In this document: piece after piece, positions 6,390-46,513 of the stretch
Layout: the number at the start of each line of letters is the position of its first letter
Numbering within the stretch: the stretch's first letter is position 1
Virus record (IMG/VR): IMGVR_UViG_3300017605_000092
Span: 1-47,832 of that record
Direction: 5' to 3' (one strand)
Length of the DNA: 47,832 nt
Source: a virus
Notes under the pieces: generated by a model
Told to the model about the DNA's origin: nothing
Databases searched by the model: none
The model's input: the letters and a program-made list of their open reading frames with translations, nothing else
Position numbers and translations under genes: made by a program

Positions 6390-8510
6390 TCAGTAATGTG
6401 TCTTGCCGTCAGGCAGATTGACCTTATCAGTGTTGGTGTTGAAGTACTTCTTTGCCTCATCTGAAAGAGTAATGTAGACGGTGTTGGCTGCGTTTCCTCC
6501 AGCGGCCGTAGCTCCAGCAGTGCTTCCTCCAGCACCGATGTTGGCAGCGTCGTACTTGTCGTCCTTGCCGCCAGGACCCTGGATGTAGTAGCCGCTCTTG
6601 GGGTCATTGAACTTGGCGTAATTCTCGTTGTACCACTTAGCGATGTTGGCACCAGCCACACGGTTACCATCAACCATGACCGGTTTGCCATCTGGGCCAT
6701 AGAGAACGAAGTTCTGAAGATTGTCTCCAGCATTGTCCAACAGAGTGTTGATCTGTGGGCTGTAGTAGCTGTAGGTGTTAATCAGAGCACTGTTCTTCTC
6801 TTGATCCGCGATGGACTGCTTGTTTCCAGTCTGAGTAGAAGCCCAACCATGGAAGTCATCCAGGCCGTGCCACCAGTTCTGGAAGGAGTTCTGGTGCTCA
6901 GTCTTGATAGTGGATTGCTTGTTGAAATCATTTTGTCCTTGAGTGACAAAGTTAGGATTGGCTGCTGCCTCCAGCATAAGTTCTTGAGCCGTCTTTGGAT
7001 CTATGCTCTGTCCAGTTATCTGGTTGTAGGCAATCCTGAACAGAGCAGCCCTGTTCTCTATGCTAACGCCAGACATGCTTGCGTATTGAGTCGCAAGATT
7101 GTGGATGACTCCTTGCAGGGCATCGAAACCTCTGTCAGCATTCGCTCCAGCAAACGCCGCACCACCGATGTTCCCAGTCAGTCCACCGATGATGTTCTGG
7201 ATCTGAGGATTCTGAGCAGCAGCAAAGACAGTAGCCGCACCAGAAGCATTAGGCCCGAGATAGGTGTTTCCAGCAAATGACCGGATAGCTCCACCAGCTA
7301 TTCTGGCAGCATCTCCAGGGCTGGCTCCCTGGCCGATCAAGAAGCCGGTGAAGTCTTTGAAGGATGAGTTCGCAATATCCATGCTGACTCCGGTACCGTC
7401 CAGAGTCTTCTTCAATGTCGCAAGCTGTTCCGCAAGTGCTTGAACAGATTCTCCGGCACCGAGCACGTTGGTCTGAAGCAACTGAGCCGACGCCGCTGGA
7501 CTCATGTTATAGTCTTTGGCTGCCCCGTACATGAAGTTCACGGCTGAACCGAAGTCTCCCTGAGCAAAACCTCCAGTACGACTAGCCCACCCTTGCTGAA
7601 CGGCCGCACTGTAGATTTGAGCAGCCTCATCTCCAGAGATGAATGGAGACATAGCCATGATCGATTGGTTAGCTCTTTGCTCCAGTCCCCAGCCGGCACC
7701 GTACTGAGAGTTGTTAGCCGAAATAGCCAAGGCACGAGATTGGGCGTAAGTCTCCAGTCCTGCGTCGACAAGCTGAAAACCGGTATATCCGAGAGCGCCA
7801 GCTATGCCAATACGACCAAACGCAGCAGCAATGCCTCCGCCGCCTCCACCAGTGAGAAACTGTTGGGCGGCCGGAAGATTGTTGGCAATCAGCCGAGACG
7901 CAGCGAACGTCCGTGCGGTGCCAGTCTGACCACCGTACTGAGAGGTGGTGACCATAGAACTCTTCCTGTGACGAAGAGCCCAGTTGTAGTCCTGGTTGTA
8001 AGCAGCAGCGGTCTCTTGAGGAACTTCGTTCTGCCCTTGACCACTGGCGCTCGCCAACCACGCTGCCTGTGTCAACTGGTTGACAAGCTCTCCAGCCTCA
8101 AGACCACCTCCAGGAGCCCTAGCAGCCATGGCGCCACCGCCCATGCCACTAGCGTTCTCCTCCATCTCACCGATGCGCTGAGCCTGACCAATCTCGCTCT
8201 GAATAAGCGGAACTGAGCCTGTGTCCACCCGGCCACCCGAGTAGGACATGTTGCCGCCCTCGCCACCCTCCAGGCCAAGAGAGGGCATCCTGACGGTCTG
8301 ACTGGTCTCACGGATGGAGATGAGATAGCTGTTAAAGTCGGCTGCTGCCCTTACGGCAGTCTGAAAATCCGTAGCAATCTGCTGGACGGCTGCCTGGACA
8401 TCCCAGAGGTTACGAGCGGAGTCCTCCGACATGTTGATGTCAAGATTGGCCTCTGCCCCATCCGAGTCACTGGTGAAACCGGAGTTGCCAGTAAGGTCCT
8501 CAAAAGGCAC
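6390..8510 (-). CDS. Probable tape measure protein
   Basis: This 706-residue protein directly follows the frameshifted chaperone pair, which is the standard position of the tape measure. It is Ala/Gly/Gln-rich and mostly helical. A hydrophobic stretch around residues 225-250 (GGIAAAFGRIGIAGALGYTG) could insert in the host membrane during ejection. It is short for a tape measure, which would imply a tail near 100 nm if the usual ~1.5 A per residue holds. The start is GTG at 8510 with GGAGG 6 nt upstream. The identification rests on position, length and composition, with no homology motif. Confidence 0.7.
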   Translation of the reverse strand: MPFEDLTGNSGFTSDSDGAEANLDINMSEDSARNLWDVQAAVQQIATDFQTAVRAAADFNSYLISIRETSQTVRMPSLGLEGGEGGNMSYSGGRVDTGSVPLIQSEIGQAQRIGEMEENASGMGGGAMAARAPGGGLEAGELVNQLTQAAWLASASGQGQNEVPQETAAAYNQDYNWALRHRKSSMVTTSQYGGQTGTARTFAASRLIANNLPAAQQFLTGGGGGGIAAAFGRIGIAGALGYTGFQLVDAGLETYAQSRALAISANNSQYGAGWGLEQRANQSIMAMSPFISGDEAAQIYSAAVQQGWASRTGGFAQGDFGSAVNFMYGAAKDYNMSPAASAQLLQTNVLGAGESVQALAEQLATLKKTLDGTGVSMDIANSSFKDFTGFLIGQGASPGDAARIAGGAIRSFAGNTYLGPNASGAATVFAAAQNPQIQNIIGGLTGNIGGAAFAGANADRGFDALQGVIHNLATQYASMSGVSIENRAALFRIAYNQITGQSIDPKTAQELMLEAAANPNFVTQGQNDFNKQSTIKTEHQNSFQNWWHGLDDFHGWASTQTGNKQSIADQEKNSALINTYSYYSPQINTLLDNAGDNLQNFVLYGPDGKPVMVDGNRVAGANIAKWYNENYAKFNDPKSGYYIQGPGGKDDKYDAANIGAGGSTAGATAAGGNAANTVYITLSDEAKKYFNTNTDKVNLPDGKTHY

Positions 8511-8513
8511 CTC

Positions 8514-8888
8514 TTACCTCCACTCCGTCCACTCGCTGCCACCATTCAGGGAAGCCTGAGACTTGGTATGCAATGTGCCAATCTTTTCGAGCAGCTTCTC
8601 CATGTCTTCTAGGTCATCTACTCCATATGTATGACCTGGAATAACATCAGGATCGTCGACCTCAACCCTGGGGAAAGCTACTTCATACAACTCTTTGCTA
8701 GTGCCCCTAAGAATGAAGTGAAGTAGCTTCTTGATCTCAAAGTCTCGATCTGCTTGCTCTCTCTTCTCGGAGAACTGGTAGTATCCCAAAGCCCATCTTT
8801 GGATCCTAGACTGATCCTTGCCAGTTAACTTCCCTGACCTGTAGGCCAAGCCGACCTCGAACTCAAGTCGTCGACTCAGCCTGAGGAT
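8514..8888 (-). CDS. Tail assembly chaperone, -1 frame extension (GT fusion)
   Basis: This open frame continues the upstream chaperone in the -1 frame. After slippage at GGGAAAA the ribosome would read ILRLSRRLEFEVGLAYRSGK and on to the TAA at 8514, giving a 300-residue fusion. A separate start (TTG at 8849) has no convincing ribosome-binding site, so production by frameshift is favoured. The segment is charged and helical with an acidic middle (VEVDDPDVIPGH). In lambda and many myoviruses the minor GT product coats the tape measure and recruits tube subunits. It ends four bases before the tape measure start. Confidence 0.8.
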   Translation of the reverse strand: MLRLSRRLEFEVGLAYRSGKLTGKDQSRIQRWALGYYQFSEKREQADRDFEIKKLLHFILRGTSKELYEVAFPRVEVDDPDVIPGHTYGVDDLEDMEKLLEKIGTLHTKSQASLNGGSEWTEWR

Positions 8889-9415
8889 TTTCCCAGCTTA
8901 TCCACGAGAGCAAGAAGTTCTAGCTCCAACTCTCGGTATTTGTTGTAGATCTGATCGACAGCTAGAGGGTAATAGTCCAGAAGGATCTCAAACTTCTTGA
9001 CGATGATCTGATCAAATTCGTTATCGGACATCGGGTTGAAAAGAAGCTTCCCGTCGATCGTCCTGATCGCTGCTGCCACCACAGCAGTGCGATAAGCCCT
9101 GCCCCAACCATCTGAGTTGAGGTAAGGCTTTGTAATTTCAGAGACCTTCAACTCTTCTGCAATAGTAAGTGTGCGCAGATGGATGTTGCGGTTAAAGACC
9201 TCTACGAACCTCTCCTTGCGACCAGCATGCATGAGGTCAACAACCTCATCTTCTTCATCTGCGGTCAGCACAGGCTCTTCTTCGGCTGCTTTTGCAGCAG
9301 CCTCCTTAATCTCTATCCTGCGCTGCTCCAGGAGAGCATCTGGATCTGGGGGGATCAGTCCATCATCAGAAGGACCCTCCAAGGTGGCCATGGTCCTTCT
9401 TATCTTCCCCGGCAT
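8876..9415 (-). CDS. Tail assembly chaperone (major product)
   Basis: This 179-residue acidic helical protein lies between tube and tape measure. Its start is ATG at 9415 with GAAGGG 5 nt upstream. The sequence has EEEPVLTADEEDEVVDLMHAG and a helical C-terminus ending LVDKLGKSSG. Four codons before the stop is a canonical slippery heptamer read as G GGA AAA, which allows a -1 extension into the downstream frame. This matches the G / G-T arrangement of tail assembly chaperones, scaffolds that are absent from the finished virion. Confidence 0.8.
   Translation of the reverse strand: MPGKIRRTMATLEGPSDDGLIPPDPDALLEQRRIEIKEAAAKAAEEEPVLTADEEDEVVDLMHAGRKERFVEVFNRNIHLRTLTIAEELKVSEITKPYLNSDGWGRAYRTAVVAAAIRTIDGKLLFNPMSDNEFDQIIVKKFEILLDYYPLAVDQIYNKYRELELELLALVDKLGKSSG
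8888..8894 (-). other. Programmed -1 ribosomal frameshift site GGGAAAA
   Basis: On the minus strand the heptamer GGGAAAA is positioned so that its last six bases are the codons GGA and AAA of the chaperone, exactly X XXY YYZ. The downstream -1 frame stays open for 124 codons and ends at the tape measure. No other feature explains a long open frame without a good start codon here. Confidence 0.85.
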
Positions 9416-10371: not shown

Positions 10372-11832
10372 CTAGCCCTGCGGTGACGTTGGTGTTGAGT
10401 TCGGCGTTGTCGCGGTGATGTTGCCAGTGGTGAGGTCGATGCTGTACCGCACCAGGATGTAGTTGAGCGGGATGCTGGCCTGCCACTCGAACTGAACCTG
10501 GATCACATCAGGGCGATCGATCAACTGCCTGGTCACGATGTTGCGCCATGCCTGGATGTCTCCGTTGTCCTGGAGAACTCCAAGGATTCCGATGACCTGA
10601 GCTTTGACTGAGGCCAGTGTCGTGTCTGAAATGACAGAGCCGATAACCCCAGAAGCGTCAAGGTAGTTCCTGATCTGGATAGCCAGTCTGTCTTCCTGGC
10701 CTGTGATGGTCCACTCACGGGTGTACAGGCTGGTTGGGTCTGTTGTCACACCATGGCGAATCCTGATCTGACCAGAGCGCAACTCTTCGATCACACACAG
10801 ACCGTTGGTAGCCTCAGTGTTCATCTGCTGCTGAGAAAGAACTTCCGTGATGTCTGTAAAACCAATCACGGGCTTTCTGGTGAGAGGTATAGCTACACCC
10901 TGAGAGACCGCAATGCCAGCCAGCGCAGCGGCCATGAAGTAGCCGCCGATAGTCACCTCAAGATTGGCCGCTGTCGAGAAATAATTGATCTTGGATGGAG
11001 ACACCATCAGCACTCTGCGGTTGTGAACCGCCGTGGCGTAGCTGATCCTCGTTGAGGAGCTTACCGGGGTGGTGTGTCCATCTACGCCAACGATCGCCCT
11101 GCGTTCTCTTCGGTTCTGGGACTGAAGATTCACATGGGAAGAGACCGAAGCAAATACCGTGTTGTCTCCGGTAGCTGGGACAACAATAGCCACACTCTCG
11201 ATATCTTGGAGTTTGGCCAAAGCTGTCTGATAGTCACTCAGAATAGGAGAGCCACTGTATGAAACAGCAACAGCAACTATTTCCGTCGCTCCATTGGAGA
11301 AAGCCAACTGGCCAGCCAGGGTGAGTGGCGAAGTTAGAGTGCCAGAAGAGTCGAAAGCTGAGCCATATGCATCTTGCAGATCGAATGGGTCTGTAAAGGT
11401 TGTGGCATCGAAGAACGTGGAGTCAGTGTACTTGTAAGTGATTCTCACCGTAGACCCAGCAAGAAGCGTACCGCCGAGAACTCTAGTGAAGGTGAATGAG
11501 TCGTCATTGGTGTCAAGTACGGTGTCTACACCAGCGTTCTGAACCCGAAGATAGTCAGTGGTGATGGCGTAAACCTGACCAGTGTTCACGTCGGTGATCA
11601 CGATGGAGTTCTTCTGGGCTCCCAGCTTGGTCAGCGGACCGAACGCCACGGGAGTAGGACCACCGGCATCCGCTGGCACTACGAAGACATCTGTGAAGCT
11701 TCTGAAGCCAACGGTGGTGCCGAAGATGCCCACGGCAGAAGGGGTGAGCGTGGAGATGCCGACAGAAGGGCCAGGAACACTCTGCGTGTACACGCCTGGT
11801 GGCACGTAGGTTGAGAAGTTCGGTGCCGTCAT
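10372..11832 (-). CDS. Tail sheath protein
   Basis: This 486-residue protein has the classic sheath N-terminus (YVPPGVYTQSVPGPSVGIS, then PSAVGIFGTT) and the C-terminal sheath core (LDASGVIGSVISDTTLASVK; QASIPLNYILVRYSIDLTTG). The C-terminal arm that interlocks neighbouring subunits is present. Its contraction drives the tube through the cell envelope. It is followed 12 bases later by the tube gene. The ATG at 11832 has AAGGAG 9 nt upstream. Confidence 0.93.
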   Translation of the reverse strand: MTAPNFSTYVPPGVYTQSVPGPSVGISTLTPSAVGIFGTTVGFRSFTDVFVVPADAGGPTPVAFGPLTKLGAQKNSIVITDVNTGQVYAITTDYLRVQNAGVDTVLDTNDDSFTFTRVLGGTLLAGSTVRITYKYTDSTFFDATTFTDPFDLQDAYGSAFDSSGTLTSPLTLAGQLAFSNGATEIVAVAVSYSGSPILSDYQTALAKLQDIESVAIVVPATGDNTVFASVSSHVNLQSQNRRERRAIVGVDGHTTPVSSSTRISYATAVHNRRVLMVSPSKINYFSTAANLEVTIGGYFMAAALAGIAVSQGVAIPLTRKPVIGFTDITEVLSQQQMNTEATNGLCVIEELRSGQIRIRHGVTTDPTSLYTREWTITGQEDRLAIQIRNYLDASGVIGSVISDTTLASVKAQVIGILGVLQDNGDIQAWRNIVTRQLIDRPDVIQVQFEWQASIPLNYILVRYSIDLTTGNITATTPNSTPTSPQG

Positions 11833-18765: not shown

Positions 18766-19683
18766 CTATGCAGTCCTCTTCCACATATAAACAACGAACA
18801 GCGGTAGAAGGTTATTAGCTGATGCCGGTGTCGAGTTGGTGTGGGTGTGAGTGCTGCTGTTGCTAGTCGCCGTAGAGGTCAAAGTGTGGCTATGTCCTCC
18901 AGCGGCACCAGTAGTTGGCGTGGAGTGACTGTGTGATGGAGTAGAGTTCCAAGAGTTATGTGAGTGAGTAGCAATTGGAGAGCTTCCTGAGTCTCCAAGA
19001 AAACGACTGGTCTGAGAACCAACAGTGCTCGTAGGGTGGTAGTGGGTAACACCTGTGCTCGTTGAACCATTTGTGCCATGAGTGTGATCACTGACAAAGT
19101 CAGTCGCGTTACTACTCAATGTGTGAGAGTGAGCAGAAGCAGCATTGGTGTTAGCGTCGATTGTGTGCGAATGAGAGTTCGATCCTCCAGTTGCACCAAG
19201 AGCGAATCCAAGACCTCCACCAGAAGCACAGAGGAACCTCTGCCCCACCGCAGTCCACGTACCCACCAGACCGAGCCCTGGGGTCAGCAGAACTGGATCT
19301 GTCACACCGGGGTAGGTCGACACCCAGGCGAAGAAGAAAGCTCCAAGCGGGTACGTGGCCACGGCCGGATGAGTGTGCGTACCAGAGGCGTACTGGTTAG
19401 CTCCAACACCGATCGTGTGGTGAAGAGACGTGGTGCCTGAGTCCGTATCTGGGCTCTGGTGCGTGTTGGCCTGAGCGAGCTTGTTGCCATGTCTGAAGGT
19501 CGCACCGTCATGAGTGTGAATTTTCAGAGTCGCTTCGGCTTGCATTGCTACTAGAGCATCACCAAGATCACGGTGATTCTGTGTGTGTGTTCTGTCCGAG
19601 TCGCCCTTGTTTCCAAGTTTTGTTGTCGTCGGAGTTGAAGGCACATTGAATACGTCATTAGCGCCAGGGAAGAGAGTTGGCAT
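18766..19683 (-). CDS. His-rich tail fibre paralogue 3
   Basis: The 305-residue product is the last of three tandem paralogues. The N-terminal 100 residues are shared (HRDLGDALVAMQAEATL, then IHTHDGAT, then THQSPDTD, HHTIGVGANQ). A central PLGAFFFAW and GTWTAVGQRFL segment follows, then about 130 residues rich in H-x-H pairs (SHSHT, DHTHG, THTHT), ending in VVYMWKRTA. HxH pairs in T4 long-fibre tips bind iron and hold the trimer, so a trimeric metal-stabilised fibre is likely. The start ATG overlaps the previous stop (TGATG). Confidence 0.75.
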   Translation of the reverse strand: MPTLFPGANDVFNVPSTPTTTKLGNKGDSDRTHTQNHRDLGDALVAMQAEATLKIHTHDGATFRHGNKLAQANTHQSPDTDSGTTSLHHTIGVGANQYASGTHTHPAVATYPLGAFFFAWVSTYPGVTDPVLLTPGLGLVGTWTAVGQRFLCASGGGLGFALGATGGSNSHSHTIDANTNAASAHSHTLSSNATDFVSDHTHGTNGSTSTGVTHYHPTSTVGSQTSRFLGDSGSSPIATHSHNSWNSTPSHSHSTPTTGAAGGHSHTLTSTATSNSSTHTHTNSTPASANNLLPLFVVYMWKRTA

Positions 19684-20558
19684 CAGGCTGTCCTCTCCCA
19701 GACGTTAACACTCAGATAAGGAGGTATGTGGCTATCAGTTGACATTGCGGCAGTGTGCGTATGGCTTCCTTGGCTATCTGTGCCCGATAGAACGTGTCCG
19801 TGATTGCCAATACCATTGGTTGAATTAACGCCATGGCTATGAGATGAGTTATTTGAGCTTTGAGTAGAGTGCTGATGGCTGGCAGCAGTCATCGCAGAGC
19901 CACCAGCCCCACTTCCATGGGACGTATCTGAAGAGCTATTGAAATCAGTGTTGCCATGCTTATGACTAAAGTTAGCAGTTCCTGACCCATTGTTAGAGTG
20001 AGTGTGATCCCCACCAGCATCAACTCCAGGAGAAGTATGAGAGTGGCTACCAGTCGTGGAGAAAGATGGAGTATGGGTGTGGGTGGTCGTTCCTCCAGTA
20101 GTGCCACCAGTGAAGGTCGAACCAGCAGCCACGATGAATTGACCAGTGATCTGACTCCAAGTCCCAGACAGCCCGTGTGTTGGGTTTGGATTTCCAGTCA
20201 ACTCAGTAATGAAGATCGACCCGACTGGCCAGACATCAGGAGCGCCATGTGTATGGTTGCCGGCTGCTCCCTGATTCGCACCCGTGCCGATCGTGTGGTG
20301 CAGAGCAGTGGTAGCGGTGTCGGTGTCAGGGCTCTGATGAGTGCGAGCCTGCGTAAGCTTCGGACCGTTCCTGGTTGTTCCATCATGAGTGTGTGCAAGA
20401 AACGTGGCCTCAGCCTGCAATGCCATGATTGCCAGACCAAGATCTGCATGGTTCACAGTCGCGGTTCGAGAACTGTCGCCGGCTGAAGCCAAAGCCGTCG
20501 AAGCTGGAGCAGATGGCTCCGTGAAGACATCATCCGACGATGGGAAGTTGATGCCCAT
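19683..20558 (-). CDS. His-rich tail fibre paralogue 2
   Basis: The 291-residue product has the same layout as its two neighbours: conserved N-terminal coat (HADLGLAIMALQAEATF, then THQSPDTD, HHTIGTGANQ), a WPVGSIFITEL and GTWSQITGQFIVAAG middle, an H-x-H-rich shaft, and LSVNVWERTA at the end. The ATG at 20558 shares bases with the upstream TAA (TAATG), with GGAGGA upstream. An in-frame start 18 bases earlier is less likely. Differences among paralogues concentrate in the central and His-rich parts, as expected for fibres under varying receptor pressure. Confidence 0.75.
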   Translation of the reverse strand: MGINFPSSDDVFTEPSAPASTALASAGDSSRTATVNHADLGLAIMALQAEATFLAHTHDGTTRNGPKLTQARTHQSPDTDTATTALHHTIGTGANQGAAGNHTHGAPDVWPVGSIFITELTGNPNPTHGLSGTWSQITGQFIVAAGSTFTGGTTGGTTTHTHTPSFSTTGSHSHTSPGVDAGGDHTHSNNGSGTANFSHKHGNTDFNSSSDTSHGSGAGGSAMTAASHQHSTQSSNNSSHSHGVNSTNGIGNHGHVLSGTDSQGSHTHTAAMSTDSHIPPYLSVNVWERTA

Positions 20559-21490
20559 TAGGCAGTCCTCCTCCACACGTAGAATGCTTTCCAGCTTGGA
20601 AGATGAGCAGTAGACGAAGAACCAGATGTATGAGAGTGAGTGCTTGAGGTAGAAGTCCCACTAGTTATCGTATGACCATGATCTCCAACACCGTTGTAGT
20701 CATTCATGGAATGACTGTGGTTGCTGGCACCAGGATCATAAACAGCGCCGCCAGAGCTTCCGTGAGCGTGACTGTTATTGCCACCAGTTGTGCCAACCGC
20801 CGAACTGTCAGCAACAGAACTGCTTACGGTAAATCCATTGTTGGTCTGTGTGTGACTGTGAGGGACATCGGTTCCAACGAGACTTCCACCATTGGTGTGT
20901 CCGTGAGTTCCAGCAGCGTTGATAGTGCCAGAAAGAGTGTGGCTATGTGCAGCATCAGCGCTAGTATCAGCAACAGTGTGAGAGTGGCTTGAAGAGTTTG
21001 CCACTACTGAACCGCTATACGTGAATGTTCCGCCAACACCGATTAAGAAAGCATCTTGGATCGCAACCCATGTCCCACCAAGAACACCGCTCGGGTTAGA
21101 AGACAAGGTGCTGATGTAGATGCACCCAACCGGCCATGAAACAGAGTTGGCGTGGGTGTCTTGGAACTCTCCAAGAGAAGCGTGGTTTCCAGGCGCAGCC
21201 TGATTAGCCCCATGCCCAAGTGTGTGGTGGAGCGATCCAGAAGCCGTATCCGTATCGGGGCTCTGGTGAGTGTTGACCTGGTTCAGCTTGTTACCGTGAC
21301 GGGCTGTCACGCCATCGTGTGAGTGGATCGCCAGAGTGGCTTCAGCCTCCATCGCCTCGATGGTGTCACCGAGATCACGATGGTGCTGAACATGATTTCT
21401 AGATCCAGTACCAGAAGCAGAGAGAGCAGTGGACCCAGGACTGTTCGGGACATTGAAGTTGTCCGTCCCAGTCGGAAAGTTGGTTGCCAC
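20558..21490 (-). CDS. His-rich tail fibre paralogue 1
   Basis: The 310-residue product is the first of the three tandem paralogues. It has the shared N-terminus (HHRDLGDTIEAMEAEATL, IHSHDGVTARHGNKL, THQSPDTD), SWPVGCIYISTL and GTWVAIQDAFLIGVG in the middle, many H-x-H pairs, and the conserved ending AFYVWRRTA. The start is GTG at 21490 with GGGAGGG upstream. A distinct 'HASLGEFQDTH' insertion sits before the WPVG motif. The gene precedes two related copies with one-base overlaps, so the three are co-translated and may form alternative or mixed fibres. Confidence 0.75.
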   Translation of the reverse strand: MATNFPTGTDNFNVPNSPGSTALSASGTGSRNHVQHHRDLGDTIEAMEAEATLAIHSHDGVTARHGNKLNQVNTHQSPDTDTASGSLHHTLGHGANQAAPGNHASLGEFQDTHANSVSWPVGCIYISTLSSNPSGVLGGTWVAIQDAFLIGVGGTFTYSGSVVANSSSHSHTVADTSADAAHSHTLSGTINAAGTHGHTNGGSLVGTDVPHSHTQTNNGFTVSSSVADSSAVGTTGGNNSHAHGSSGGAVYDPGASNHSHSMNDYNGVGDHGHTITSGTSTSSTHSHTSGSSSTAHLPSWKAFYVWRRTA

Positions 21491-21512: not shown

Positions 21513-21965
21513 TTACTGCCAGGTCACGTGCTCTTGGTTGACAATGAAGGTGTTCGGAGCTTGGAACACGCTCCGATAAACCCCCGTCTCCCACTCCGGA
21601 CCAGTCGGCTTGACCTCTTCGACCTCAACCGAAGTCTCCTCATCGGTAGAGTCCGGAGTCGACTGATCGGTAGAATCGACCACGGTCTCTTCCTCGACTA
21701 CAGGTGCGGCAGCAGCAGCCTGAGCAGCAAGGATCTGCTCTCGCCAGGTTGCTGAGAGCCTTCCGCTCGCTGGCACATCTTCGATGCCGTTGTCCTTGGC
21801 CCACGCACGAAGATCAGCGTCGGAAGCAGACTCGTCCACGGAGGTAGTCGGATCATCAACCAGGACTGGATCTGGCTCTGTAGAAACAGACTCAACAGGA
21901 GCTTCTGGAGCCGGATCGACCGGTGTTGGGTCTGGTGGTGGAGTTGTGCTCTGCGGTAGTGACAT
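21513..21965 (-). CDS. Acidic protein with Lsr2-like C-terminal module
   Basis: The 150-residue product is Pro/Asp/Glu-rich and probably disordered, except for a central segment, SDADLRAWAKDNGIEDVPAS, followed by GRLSATWREQILAA. This resembles the small DNA-binding domain at the end of Lsr2 (R-x-WA-x-x-NG, then GR-x(4)-v-x-x-A) and related Rho-N/HeH-type modules found in actinophage head proteins. The C-terminus is another conserved-looking strip (WETGVYRSVFQAPNTFIVN). The ATG at 21965 overlaps the previous stop (TGATG), with GAGGT upstream. Whether it binds DNA is unknown. Confidence 0.6.
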   Translation of the reverse strand: MSLPQSTTPPPDPTPVDPAPEAPVESVSTEPDPVLVDDPTTSVDESASDADLRAWAKDNGIEDVPASGRLSATWREQILAAQAAAAAPVVEEETVVDSTDQSTPDSTDEETSVEVEEVKPTGPEWETGVYRSVFQAPNTFIVNQEHVTWQ

Positions 21966-22621
21966 CAGAGTGACCTCTTCATGACGTTGTCCCTTAACTT
22001 CCACACGAGATTGTCATTGACATCTCGGACCTGTTCAATTAACTCAACAGAATCAATGTGAAGGTCACAGAGGGCAGGCACATTATTGTCCAAGTCCTCA
22101 CTGGACAAGAAGATCTGCTCATGGCAGATCAGGCACTCTAGTGGAGTCAGATTGTTCTTCTTATCTGAATCCAGGGTGTATGGCAGAATGCCACCCATGT
22201 CATCTGCGCTCTGGGCCAGAGTCAAGTAATCCTCGACACTAGGATCCTTGGTGACCTGCACCCGACCAGTCCGCCATAGGCGCTGGAATCCAGGATGCAA
22301 CGCTACCTCAATGGGTAGCTGCTTGACGGAGTCGCGGTTGTACTTCGGTTCGATTCGGAGCACATTGCCCTTACCGTCGTCGTGCGAGATCATGTCATTC
22401 ATCTTGTTGATGACGAATAACTGACCGGTATAACCTCTCAGGTCGTTTGGCCTAATCATGCCTGAAAGGTCTTCCTTCGCGTCTTCCGGGTGTACGCTCT
22501 CAGTTGAGGCAGATGGGTTGTTCCCACCTGTGAAGTCCTCACGAGAGAACCCGCGACGCTCGGGGCTTTCAGGCTTGGCCACCGTTCCGTCTTGCCGAAT
22601 TATCGGCATGGGTGTGGTCAT
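21965..22621 (-). CDS. Unknown head-region protein with zinc knuckle
   Basis: The 218-residue product has a polar N-terminus, a central region (FVINKMNDMISHDDGKGNVL; VALHPGFQRLWRTGRVQV) and a cysteine/histidine cluster near the C-terminus (LECLICHEQIF, then ALCDLHID), likely a zinc site. I recognise no family. The gene follows a pseudoknot-capable intergenic segment, and its ATG at 22621 is preceded by AAAGG. Its position after capsid genes suggests a virion protein. Confidence 0.6.
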   Translation of the reverse strand: MTTPMPIIRQDGTVAKPESPERRGFSREDFTGGNNPSASTESVHPEDAKEDLSGMIRPNDLRGYTGQLFVINKMNDMISHDDGKGNVLRIEPKYNRDSVKQLPIEVALHPGFQRLWRTGRVQVTKDPSVEDYLTLAQSADDMGGILPYTLDSDKKNNLTPLECLICHEQIFLSSEDLDNNVPALCDLHIDSVELIEQVRDVNDNLVWKLRDNVMKRSL

Positions 22622-22643
22622 TGCCTTTTCTCTTTTCTGTTGT

Positions 22644-22698
22644 CTCCCCGGAAAGCTTGTTGGGGCCAGAGTTCCGGGGAGGAAGACTCTGGCCCCAA
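22644..22698 (-). other. Pseudoknot-capable intergenic RNA / terminator-like hairpin
   Basis: On the minus strand a perfect 13-bp stem pairs bases 22698-22686 (TTGGGGCCAGAGT) with 22672-22660. Within its 13-base loop, CTCCCCGGA (22681-22673) is perfectly complementary to TCCGGGGAG (22652-22644) just downstream. This is an H-type pseudoknot layout or two competing structures. No U-tract follows, so it is not a classical terminator. It sits between a capsid-region gene and the zinc-knuckle gene. Confidence 0.6.
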
Positions 22699-22705
22699 GC
22701 TTGTA

Positions 22706-23344
22706 CTACAGAGCGGTAATCGTCGCACCGGCAGACAGTGGAACGTACACAATGTCCCACTTGATTGAACCGGTTGTGTTGTTGGCGTCCGTGGTCAGTG
22801 TGATGTTGCCACCACCAGTGAGCACAAGAGTCTCAGCGATCATGTTGCTCAGCGGCACCGATGAGTGAGAAGCGGCGACACCGATCTGCAATGCCGTGGC
22901 CTTGGTGCCGGTCATCGAAAGCATTGTGCCTACGGTCAACGAGGTGACCAGACCGTTGGCACACATGTCGATGTTGGGATCGGCACCAGTCGGGTCGAAA
23001 CCAACCTTCAGGTTAGTCGCGGTGGCCGTCATGGCAGTCGTAACCTCACCGAGGAACGACTTGATCGCGACACGTCCAGCAACAGCGAAGATGTTGCCAG
23101 TGGCGGTCTGAGGAAGCACCGCAGTTGCTCTGGACACCAAAACGCTACCGTCAGCGTTGACGTTTCCGCCATCGAGCAGTGCACCAGCGGTGAACGCTGT
23201 AGAGCTAAGTGCAGCGAACTCGAAATCGTTCAGTGTTACTACCGTGCCAGAAGCAACAATGGTCCTGGAGTTCAAGCCAGAAGCCAAAGAAGGCTGGTAC
23301 GGCAAAGAAACGTTCGCCGCGTTTGTGGTAACAATGTGTGGCAT
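22706..23344 (-). CDS. Capsid decoration-like structural protein
   Basis: The 212-residue product follows the major capsid gene. It is Ala/Thr/Gly/Val-rich with strongly alternating beta-strand pattern (GTVVTLNDFEFAALSSTAF; GNITLTTDANNTTGSIKWDI; GATITAL end), like virion surface proteins. The ATG at 23344 follows AAGGAGGAGAGA, a strong ribosome-binding site that fits high expression. No diagnostic motif is seen, so the decoration role is inferred from position and composition. Confidence 0.65.
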   Translation of the reverse strand: MPHIVTTNAANVSLPYQPSLASGLNSRTIVASGTVVTLNDFEFAALSSTAFTAGALLDGGNVNADGSVLVSRATAVLPQTATGNIFAVAGRVAIKSFLGEVTTAMTATATNLKVGFDPTGADPNIDMCANGLVTSLTVGTMLSMTGTKATALQIGVAASHSSVPLSNMIAETLVLTGGGNITLTTDANNTTGSIKWDIVYVPLSAGATITAL

Positions 23345-23379
23345 TCTCTCCTCCTCCTTCTTGAGGAAGGTTAAGTGGG

Positions 23380-23402
23380 TGGGGGGCTTTTAAGGCCCCC
23401 CA
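23380..23402 (-). terminator. GC-rich hairpin after major capsid gene
   Basis: An 8-bp stem TGGGGGGC/GCCCCCCA with a 7-base loop lies 7 bases after the capsid stop codon. No U-tract follows on the minus strand, so it may be an RNA-stabilising or attenuating hairpin that sets capsid protein stoichiometry. Confidence 0.5.
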
Positions 23403-23408
23403 CATCAC

Positions 23409-36279: not shown

Positions 36280-36342
36280 GGCTCTGAGTAAAACCAGAGC
36301 CAAATTTGGTAGTCGCCTGACATACCAGTGCGACTACCAAAT
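36280..36342 (-). terminator. Tandem hairpins separating small-gene and virion operons
   Basis: Two adjacent perfect stems lie just upstream of the head operon. A 13-bp stem (36304-36316 with 36330-36342, ATTTGGTAGTCGC) is followed on the minus strand by a 7-bp stem (GGCTCTG/CAGAGCC, 36280-36301) with a T-rich loop. The layout suits a terminator for the upstream genes or a structured leader for the head operon. Confidence 0.5.
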
Positions 36343-38800: not shown

Positions 38801-38848
38801 AGCTCGGTTAGCTAGTTCTACTATATCAGAGAACTAGCTAACCGAGCT
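38801..38848 (-). other. Perfect 19-bp inverted repeat with -10-like loop
   Basis: AGCTCGGTTAGCTAGTTCT (38801-38819) and its exact complement at 38830-38848 flank a 10-base loop that reads CTGATATAGT on the minus strand. It separates the LysM-M23 gene from the 38451 gene. A terminator followed by only a short T run, or an operator with a TATAGT -10 in the loop, are both possible. Confidence 0.6.
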
Positions 38849-41894: not shown

Positions 41895-41933
41895 CCAGTC
41901 GGGGTCTGAAGCCCCCACTCACCACCACATAAA

Positions 41934-41980
41934 AACAGAGCAGGTCCGGATCTCCCGCAAGAGCCCGGACCTGCTCTGTT
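41934..41980. terminator. Strong bidirectional Rho-independent terminator
   Basis: A perfect 16-bp stem (AACAGAGCAGGTCCGG with its complement at 41965-41980) with a 15-base loop lies between two convergent genes. Toward the minus strand it is followed by TTTTTATG, and toward the plus strand by a short T run. It should stop transcription from both the Ig-like gene and the DUF2786 gene. Confidence 0.85.
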
Positions 41981-41984
41981 TCTG

Positions 41985-46322: not shown

Positions 46323-46513
46323 TTGATGTTCACCTTCCGCATTTCGCCATTTACGACAGCCCACATCCTATAAGGGTACCGACCGTGCTCATCGTAGAAC
46401 TTCTTGGCCACGGCGGTCATGTAGGCGAAGTCCCTGTACAAGTACGGGTACAACTTACCGCGCTCGTTGAACAGGACACCCCAGTGGTATTTGTCTGTTT
46501 GTTCCTCTGTCAC
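46319..46513 (-). CDS. Small unknown protein with leaderless start (64 aa)
   Basis: The product (MTEEQTDKYHWGVLFNERGK, YPYLYRDFAYMTAVAKKFYD) is a compact alpha/beta protein with many aromatics. The GTG at 46513 lies 7 nt after the -10 TAGAGT of the promoter at 46521-46548, with no ribosome-binding site. It is the first gene of the minus-strand small-gene operon and is coupled to the HAD gene. Confidence 0.6.
   Translation of the reverse strand: MTEEQTDKYHWGVLFNERGKLYPYLYRDFAYMTAVAKKFYDEHGRYPYRMWAVVNGEMRKVNIN

Follow-up and report, generated by a model that had tools for sequence, protein, structure and literature searches.

An RNA element that can form an H-type pseudoknot is encoded on the minus strand at positions 22644-22698 of the virus record IMGVR_UViG_3300017605_000092, which was analysed over its full 47,832 nt (47.8 kb) and is here called the window. 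The element lies between a gene for a 212-amino acid (aa) protein and a gene for a 218-aa protein, and it is best explained as a pseudoknot in a polycistronic late mRNA, in the gap that separates two genes of the virion region. Comparison with other genomes suggests that the same layout is used by actinobacterial phages, mainly between the genes for the major tail protein (MTP), which forms the tail tube, and the tail chaperone (TAC). The predicted structure is strongly supported, with a strong case for the layout and a good one for the window. Its function is something we infer: with a probability of about 0.5, the element would be a cis-acting RNA that tunes translation of the downstream gene against that of the upstream virion gene.

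All genes around the pseudoknot are on the minus strand, and the transcript is therefore read from this strand. The order is then stop codon, 7 nt, TTGGGGCCAGAGT, CTTC, CTCCCCGGA, ACTCTGGCCCCAA, CAAGCTT, TCCGGGGAG, 22 nt and ATG. Stem S1 is the perfect 13-bp inverted repeat 22660-22672/22686-22698, whose 5' arm TTGGGGCCAGAGT (22686-22698) starts 7 nt past the stop codon of the 212-aa gene, and whose 3' arm is ACTCTGGCCCCAA (22660-22672). The hairpin loop holds the 4-nt loop L1 (CTTC, 22682-22685) and the 5' arm of stem S2, CTCCCCGGA (22673-22681). S2 (9 bp, within a 9-10 bp repeat at 22644-22653/22672-22681) is completed by a single copy of TCCGGGGAG at 22644-22652, which corresponds to -31 to -23 relative to the start codon of the 218-aa gene. 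L2 is 0 nt, L3 (CAAGCTT, 22653-22659) is 7 nt, and the distance from S1 to the start codon is 38 nt. The 22 nt between S2 and the ATG (22622-22643) make up an unpaired A/G-rich leader with a weak ribosome-binding site, ACAACAGAAAAGAGAAAAGGCA, and this leader is kept in relatives. The bases of the hairpin loop are thus predicted to pair outside it so that the helices cross, and a short L1 and an L2 of 0 would allow the helices to stack, as in an H-type pseudoknot. The calculated energies are about -27.7 kcal/mol for S1 alone and about -18.2 kcal/mol for S2.

A preliminary description of this region had listed the perfect 13-bp stem, the 9-base loop complement and the connecting loops of 4 and 7 bases, all of which were found; the two arms of S2 are, however, 20 nt apart and not 21. 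It had also regarded such an arrangement as rarely accidental. A set of 120 simulated windows with the same dinucleotide make-up contained in total only five pseudoknots with an S1 of at least 9 and an S2 of at least 7 bp, the largest being 10+7 against 13+9 here. When both strands of the window were scanned, this was the best pseudoknot and the sole strong one. No other inverted repeat in the window has a loop complement of comparable size, and the S2 loop has no second pairing site of note there. Rfam searches of the window in gathering and lenient modes gave no family at threshold, and at most weak, far sub-threshold matches.

The window's own group comprises three independent sequences, i.e., the window, L006/L007 and L012. 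Both stems are kept at the same junction in the two relatives, with an S1 of 11 bp and an S2 of 9 and 7 bp, respectively, followed by a similar A/G-rich leader. Retention of only one stem in relatives, which the preliminary description had named as evidence against its proposal, was thus not observed. The flanking proteins are 48-50% identical for the 212-aa gene and, in L006, 75% identical for the 218-aa gene. The leader and S2 are conserved in sequence within the group, and the changes seen affect helix length and loops. As there are no clean double substitutions, the window group alone displays conservation and not compensation. A scan of viral contigs with the S1 sequence added no further members to this family.

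A scan of viral contigs with the S2 sequence alone, on the other hand, identified unrelated phages where an identical S2 is combined with a different, fully paired S1. The S2 identity proves nothing, since the scan chose this sequence, and it was rejected as evidence for conservation or common descent of S2 among these siphophages; the independently paired S1 is what carries weight. Several of the loci are found where the gene for the major tail protein gives way to the gene after it, ahead of the tape measure, while L132 lies after an HK97-type major capsid protein (MCP) and L093 before an HNH open reading frame (ORF), all genes being named from sequence. In the pseudoknots of L132 ((-) 4108) and L093 ((+) 2612), S1 and the start codon are separated by only some 19 nt. 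A 12+8 bp pseudoknot was also seen in Rhodococcus phage E3 near 46365-46416 (L048 ~10644-10695, minus strand), directly after gp85 (cutinase), at a convergent gene end and not before a start codon. The junctions between MCP and the next gene of Myrna-like phages, E3, TM4, Bxb1, phiC31 and D29 contain ordinary stems as judged by eye. Two other candidates were rejected as unlike the window layout, the lambda V-G junction having a very short gap and the TP901-1 junction a stem followed by a T-run.

Tail-gene homologues from viral contigs and named phages gave 78 distinct MTP-TAC junctions of actinobacterial-type siphophages, 60 when near-duplicates were removed. In each of them the best hairpin after the stop codon was picked blind to its loop, and the loop, extended at either end by two bases of the stem, was then matched against the 70 nt that follow; as a control each loop was compared with the downstream stretch of every other phage. 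Exact loop complements of at least 6, 7, 8 and 9 nt were found in 57, 52, 47 and 24 of the 60 junctions, while the swapped pairs gave rates of 19, 6.8, 2.3 and 0.9%. At least two copies of a 6-mer match were present in 46/60 junctions versus 4.2% of the swaps. Most junctions have two or three tandem copies of the site, the last usually on the ribosome-binding region; it overlaps the Shine-Dalgarno purine run or the start codon in 33/57, against 16.7 expected from uniform placement. The core common to the copies differs in nearly all phages among the 47 junctions with at least two copies. An unbiased scan of the same loci returned 43 matches at MTP-TAC junctions and two elsewhere.

The geometry of these junctions is fairly uniform. 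The stem is GC-rich and begins 3-18 nt past the stop codon in 50/57, and the spacing from S1 to the start codon (set by rule, so that a few may be wrong) is 33-54 nt in 56/57. Median values are 14 bp for S1 and 11 nt for the loop, and L1 is mostly 2-4 nt and L2 mostly -2 to 1, negative values meaning that the match runs into stem bases. A T-run of at least four after S1 was found in none of the 60 junctions, and the tail-junction element matched no Rfam family. The junctions that failed were L425, which has a poly-G run through the stem, and L492 and L493, where the reading of the tail gene end is doubtful. Long G and C runs in the stem were noted in both L413 and L425, perhaps due to an assembly or sequencing fault.

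Covariation was studied on one alignable subset, 11 junctions aligned by sequence and not fitted to the structure. For both stems, 97.6% of the cells were paired, as against 42-51% with a slid partner, and nine pairs had double changes. S1 was 100% paired with five pairs changed on both sides, S2 was 93.8% paired with the last copy and 90.8% with the first, each with four double changes, and sliding the partner along reduced overall pairing to 40-51%. In one loop column where C is replaced by G, all five sequences concerned have the matching change in the first copy as well as in the last. It has thus been shown by comparative analysis that a GC-rich stem directly follows the upstream stop codon in this layout, and that its loop has between one and three complementary sites downstream, with which it co-varies. 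The junctions of three laboratory phages were read by eye, outside the scored procedure. The TM4 gp14-gp15 junction has the stem CACCCCGCGC/GCGCGGGGTG with TTTCCTGGTG in the loop, and downstream CACCAGG, CCAGGAAA and CACCAGGAGG, of which the third is probably the ribosome-binding site. D29 gp23-gp24 is similarly arranged, with TTGGCGGGCC in the loop and, downstream, CCCGCCA, GCCCGCCA and a short CGCCA that abuts the ATG, while Bxb1 has a weaker version.

The window element follows this pattern with a stem of 13 bp 7 nt past the stop codon of a virion gene, a loop complement before the start and a spacing of 38 nt. It has a single copy of the site instead of two or more with the last on the ribosome-binding region, and its junction follows the capsid genes instead of the MTP gene; the window's tail chaperone is encoded elsewhere, at 8876-9415. 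On layout, though not on copy number or gene neighbourhood, it would belong to the same class as the tail-junction RNAs. The core proposal of the preliminary description, a pseudoknot-capable RNA in front of a gene, is consequently strengthened, as relatives keep both stems and both stems compensate in the wider set. The compensatory changes it had looked to relatives for are present as double changes in that set, while none is clean within the window's three-member group. It had further held that the connecting loops make a full pseudoknot tight, so that the two helices may alternate. A pseudoknot too tight to form is not supported: in this layout L1 is typically 2-4 nt long and L2 close to 0, the usual geometry of stacked helices in an H-type pseudoknot. 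A translational switch, one of the two functions it had suggested, is plausible and fits the tail-gene set best.

A possible mechanism is that the loop pairs with a downstream site in the mRNA and in this way controls initiation on the gene that follows. In the tail set the last copy seems to sit where the 30S subunit must bind, and the first copy at or past its upstream edge. Pairing of the loop with the last copy would then lower initiation, and pairing with the first would compete with this and free the initiation region. Since the stem starts 3-18 nt past the stop codon, S1 may be opened by ribosomes that terminate on the upstream gene. The near-equal predicted energies of the two states across phages would suit constant partial repression as well as switching by the ribosome that ends the upstream gene. 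In the window the pseudoknot would most likely act as a roadblock immediately 5' of where initiation takes place, a milder form of the tail-junction control that would uncouple the downstream gene from heavy ribosome traffic upstream. Such a roadblock between two genes, or a stability role, appears more likely there than occlusion. With somewhat less confidence than an even chance, we suggest that actinobacterial phages share an undescribed mRNA switch at gene junctions, where the loop would choose among two or three tandem partners, only the last covering the ribosome-binding site, and thereby set the ratio of tail tube to tail chaperone; the window would then have a single-copy version in the capsid region.

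Several observations weigh against translational tuning. The window, L006 and L012 have only one copy, about 20-22 nt upstream of the ATG, and S2 alone can therefore not occlude the ribosome-binding site in the window; the 3' strand of S2 lies upstream of that site and not on it. In L011, a close relative, the junction has no pseudoknot and is occupied by another copy of the 212-aa gene (7688-7881; the copy is partial and seemingly follows the first). The nearest-neighbour minimum free energy fold without pseudoknots has S1 extended by part of L3 with the preceding AAGC, so a competing state exists. In the tail set, first and last copies are on average equally stable (26 versus 26), and the dominant state is thus not readable from the sequence. 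Finally, the 9-nt S2 common to some siphophages reflects selection by the pattern scan and is no proof of common descent.

The position of the stem, 3-18 nt past the stop codon in 50/57 tail junctions and 7 nt in the window, would also be expected if the pseudoknot mainly stabilized the mRNA, by blocking exonucleases or marking a processing site and so protecting an abundant upstream message, with downstream effects being secondary. Pseudoknots resist unwinding, and another stem that follows the MCP stop codon (23379-23403) is swapped for unrelated stems in relatives. A stable hairpin would, however, suffice for this purpose with no need for co-variation between the loop and two or three copies, and the placement of the last copy on the ribosome-binding region more often than predicted goes unexplained; we consider this explanation unlikely, although it is the strongest of the alternatives. 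Less probable still is an operator like that of T4 gene 32, where a phage protein, perhaps the zinc-ribbon-like 218-aa product, would bind the pseudoknot and cover the A/G-rich leader. The anatomy of a pseudoknot followed by an unstructured leader is that of the gene 32 operator (PMC3014915), and the sequence conservation of leader and S2 within the window group would fit a binding site. The loop and sites of the wider set, by contrast, vary between almost all phages, whereas a site for a protein would be fixed, and there is no known binding protein.

S1 might also be a terminator hairpin with S2 as an anti-structure, since a stem that follows the gene for the major tail protein in mycobacteriophage Corndog has been annotated as a terminator (PMC4351075). 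Both this and the attenuator of the preliminary description are contradicted by the lack of a U-tract after S1, which that description had itself noted; a terminator scan lists none at this place in the window, and the tail junctions lack T-runs. Moreover, essential virion genes continue on the same strand, and S1 and S2 can coexist as S2 does not disrupt S1, which makes termination very improbable. Chance inverted repeats without function are hardly credible. The window's own group has only three independent sequences, but the simulation, the conservation in relatives and the recurrence of the layout with massive co-variation already contradict this. Translational tuning by the pseudoknot remains our preferred reading.

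Genes for a portal, a protease, a cement protein, an MCP, a tail sheath, a tail chaperone and a tape measure were recognised in the window. The MCP shares about 69% identity with its counterparts in Myrna, Phabba and Skog; the phage is related to large mycobacterial phages, and the tail sheath indicates a contractile tail. The upstream 212-aa protein (ORF 22706-23344, minus strand) has no match in PHROG, Pfam or the phage collection. A four-sequence AlphaFold model (pLDDT 70) gave distant matches to phage proteins, some annotated as virion structural, and the protein is predicted to be mostly beta and is probably a virion (head) protein. The downstream 218-aa protein (ORF 21965-22621, minus strand) belongs to phrog_2784 (unknown function) and carries a CxxC...CxxH motif. 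The gap between the MCP and 212-aa genes (23345-23408, minus strand) contains the near-perfect 12-bp stem mentioned above, directly after the MCP stop codon and replaced by unrelated stems in L006, L011 and L012; it is followed by CCTTCCTC..AAGGAGG, which could hide a ribosome-binding site. Three adjoining genes of about 300 aa (18766-21490, minus strand) have similar N-termini and His-rich repeats and are tail-fibre or baseplate-like, two matching phrog_2826 and one Gp10_C. Perfect inverted repeats of 13-19 bp near gene ends at 38801-38848, 41933-41981 and 36304-36342 are possible terminators, and none has a downstream loop complement comparable to that of the pseudoknot.

No earlier description of an RNA motif at the tail junction or the capsid genes was found in the open-access literature, and the layout appears to be new as judged from this literature and Rfam. 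The production of many tube subunits and few chaperones from adjoining genes in long-tailed phages is usually ascribed to frameshifting and weak ribosome-binding sites. A co-varying RNA at this junction in TM4, with a similar one in D29, would be a directly testable control point in well-used mycobacteriophages. The tail set shares its gene neighbourhood with the tail-chaperone frameshift element (G/GT), but lies in the gap before the start codon. In the preQ1-I and SAM-II riboswitches the pseudoknot loop pairs with the Shine-Dalgarno sequence, and the last copy of the tail set would similarly bring the hairpin loop to the ribosome-binding region of the next gene. These RNAs differ from the riboswitches in having no conserved ligand pocket, freely rewritten helices, several target copies and no Rfam match. 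The Corndog (Cluster O) stem likewise lies directly after the major tail subunit gene; it is followed by TTTCT, and loop complementarity is not mentioned in the available part of its description (PMC4351075). Another close system is the operator of gene 32 in T4, T2 and RB69, where a phage mRNA likewise forms an H-type pseudoknot that precedes an unstructured leader carrying the ribosome-binding site. There some 67 nt lie between the pseudoknot and the start codon, UUAA(A) repeats occur in an A+U-rich leader, and the RNA is bound by gp32 (PMC3014915). Here the stem follows the stop codon of a structural gene, the leader is A/G-rich, and the tail junctions have tandem alternative 3' strands. 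In a 2010 review the T4 gene 32 pseudoknot was perhaps still the only viral one in translational autoregulation (PMC3014915). It would also be unusual for a regulatory RNA if one pseudoknot could use several partner strands interchangeably.
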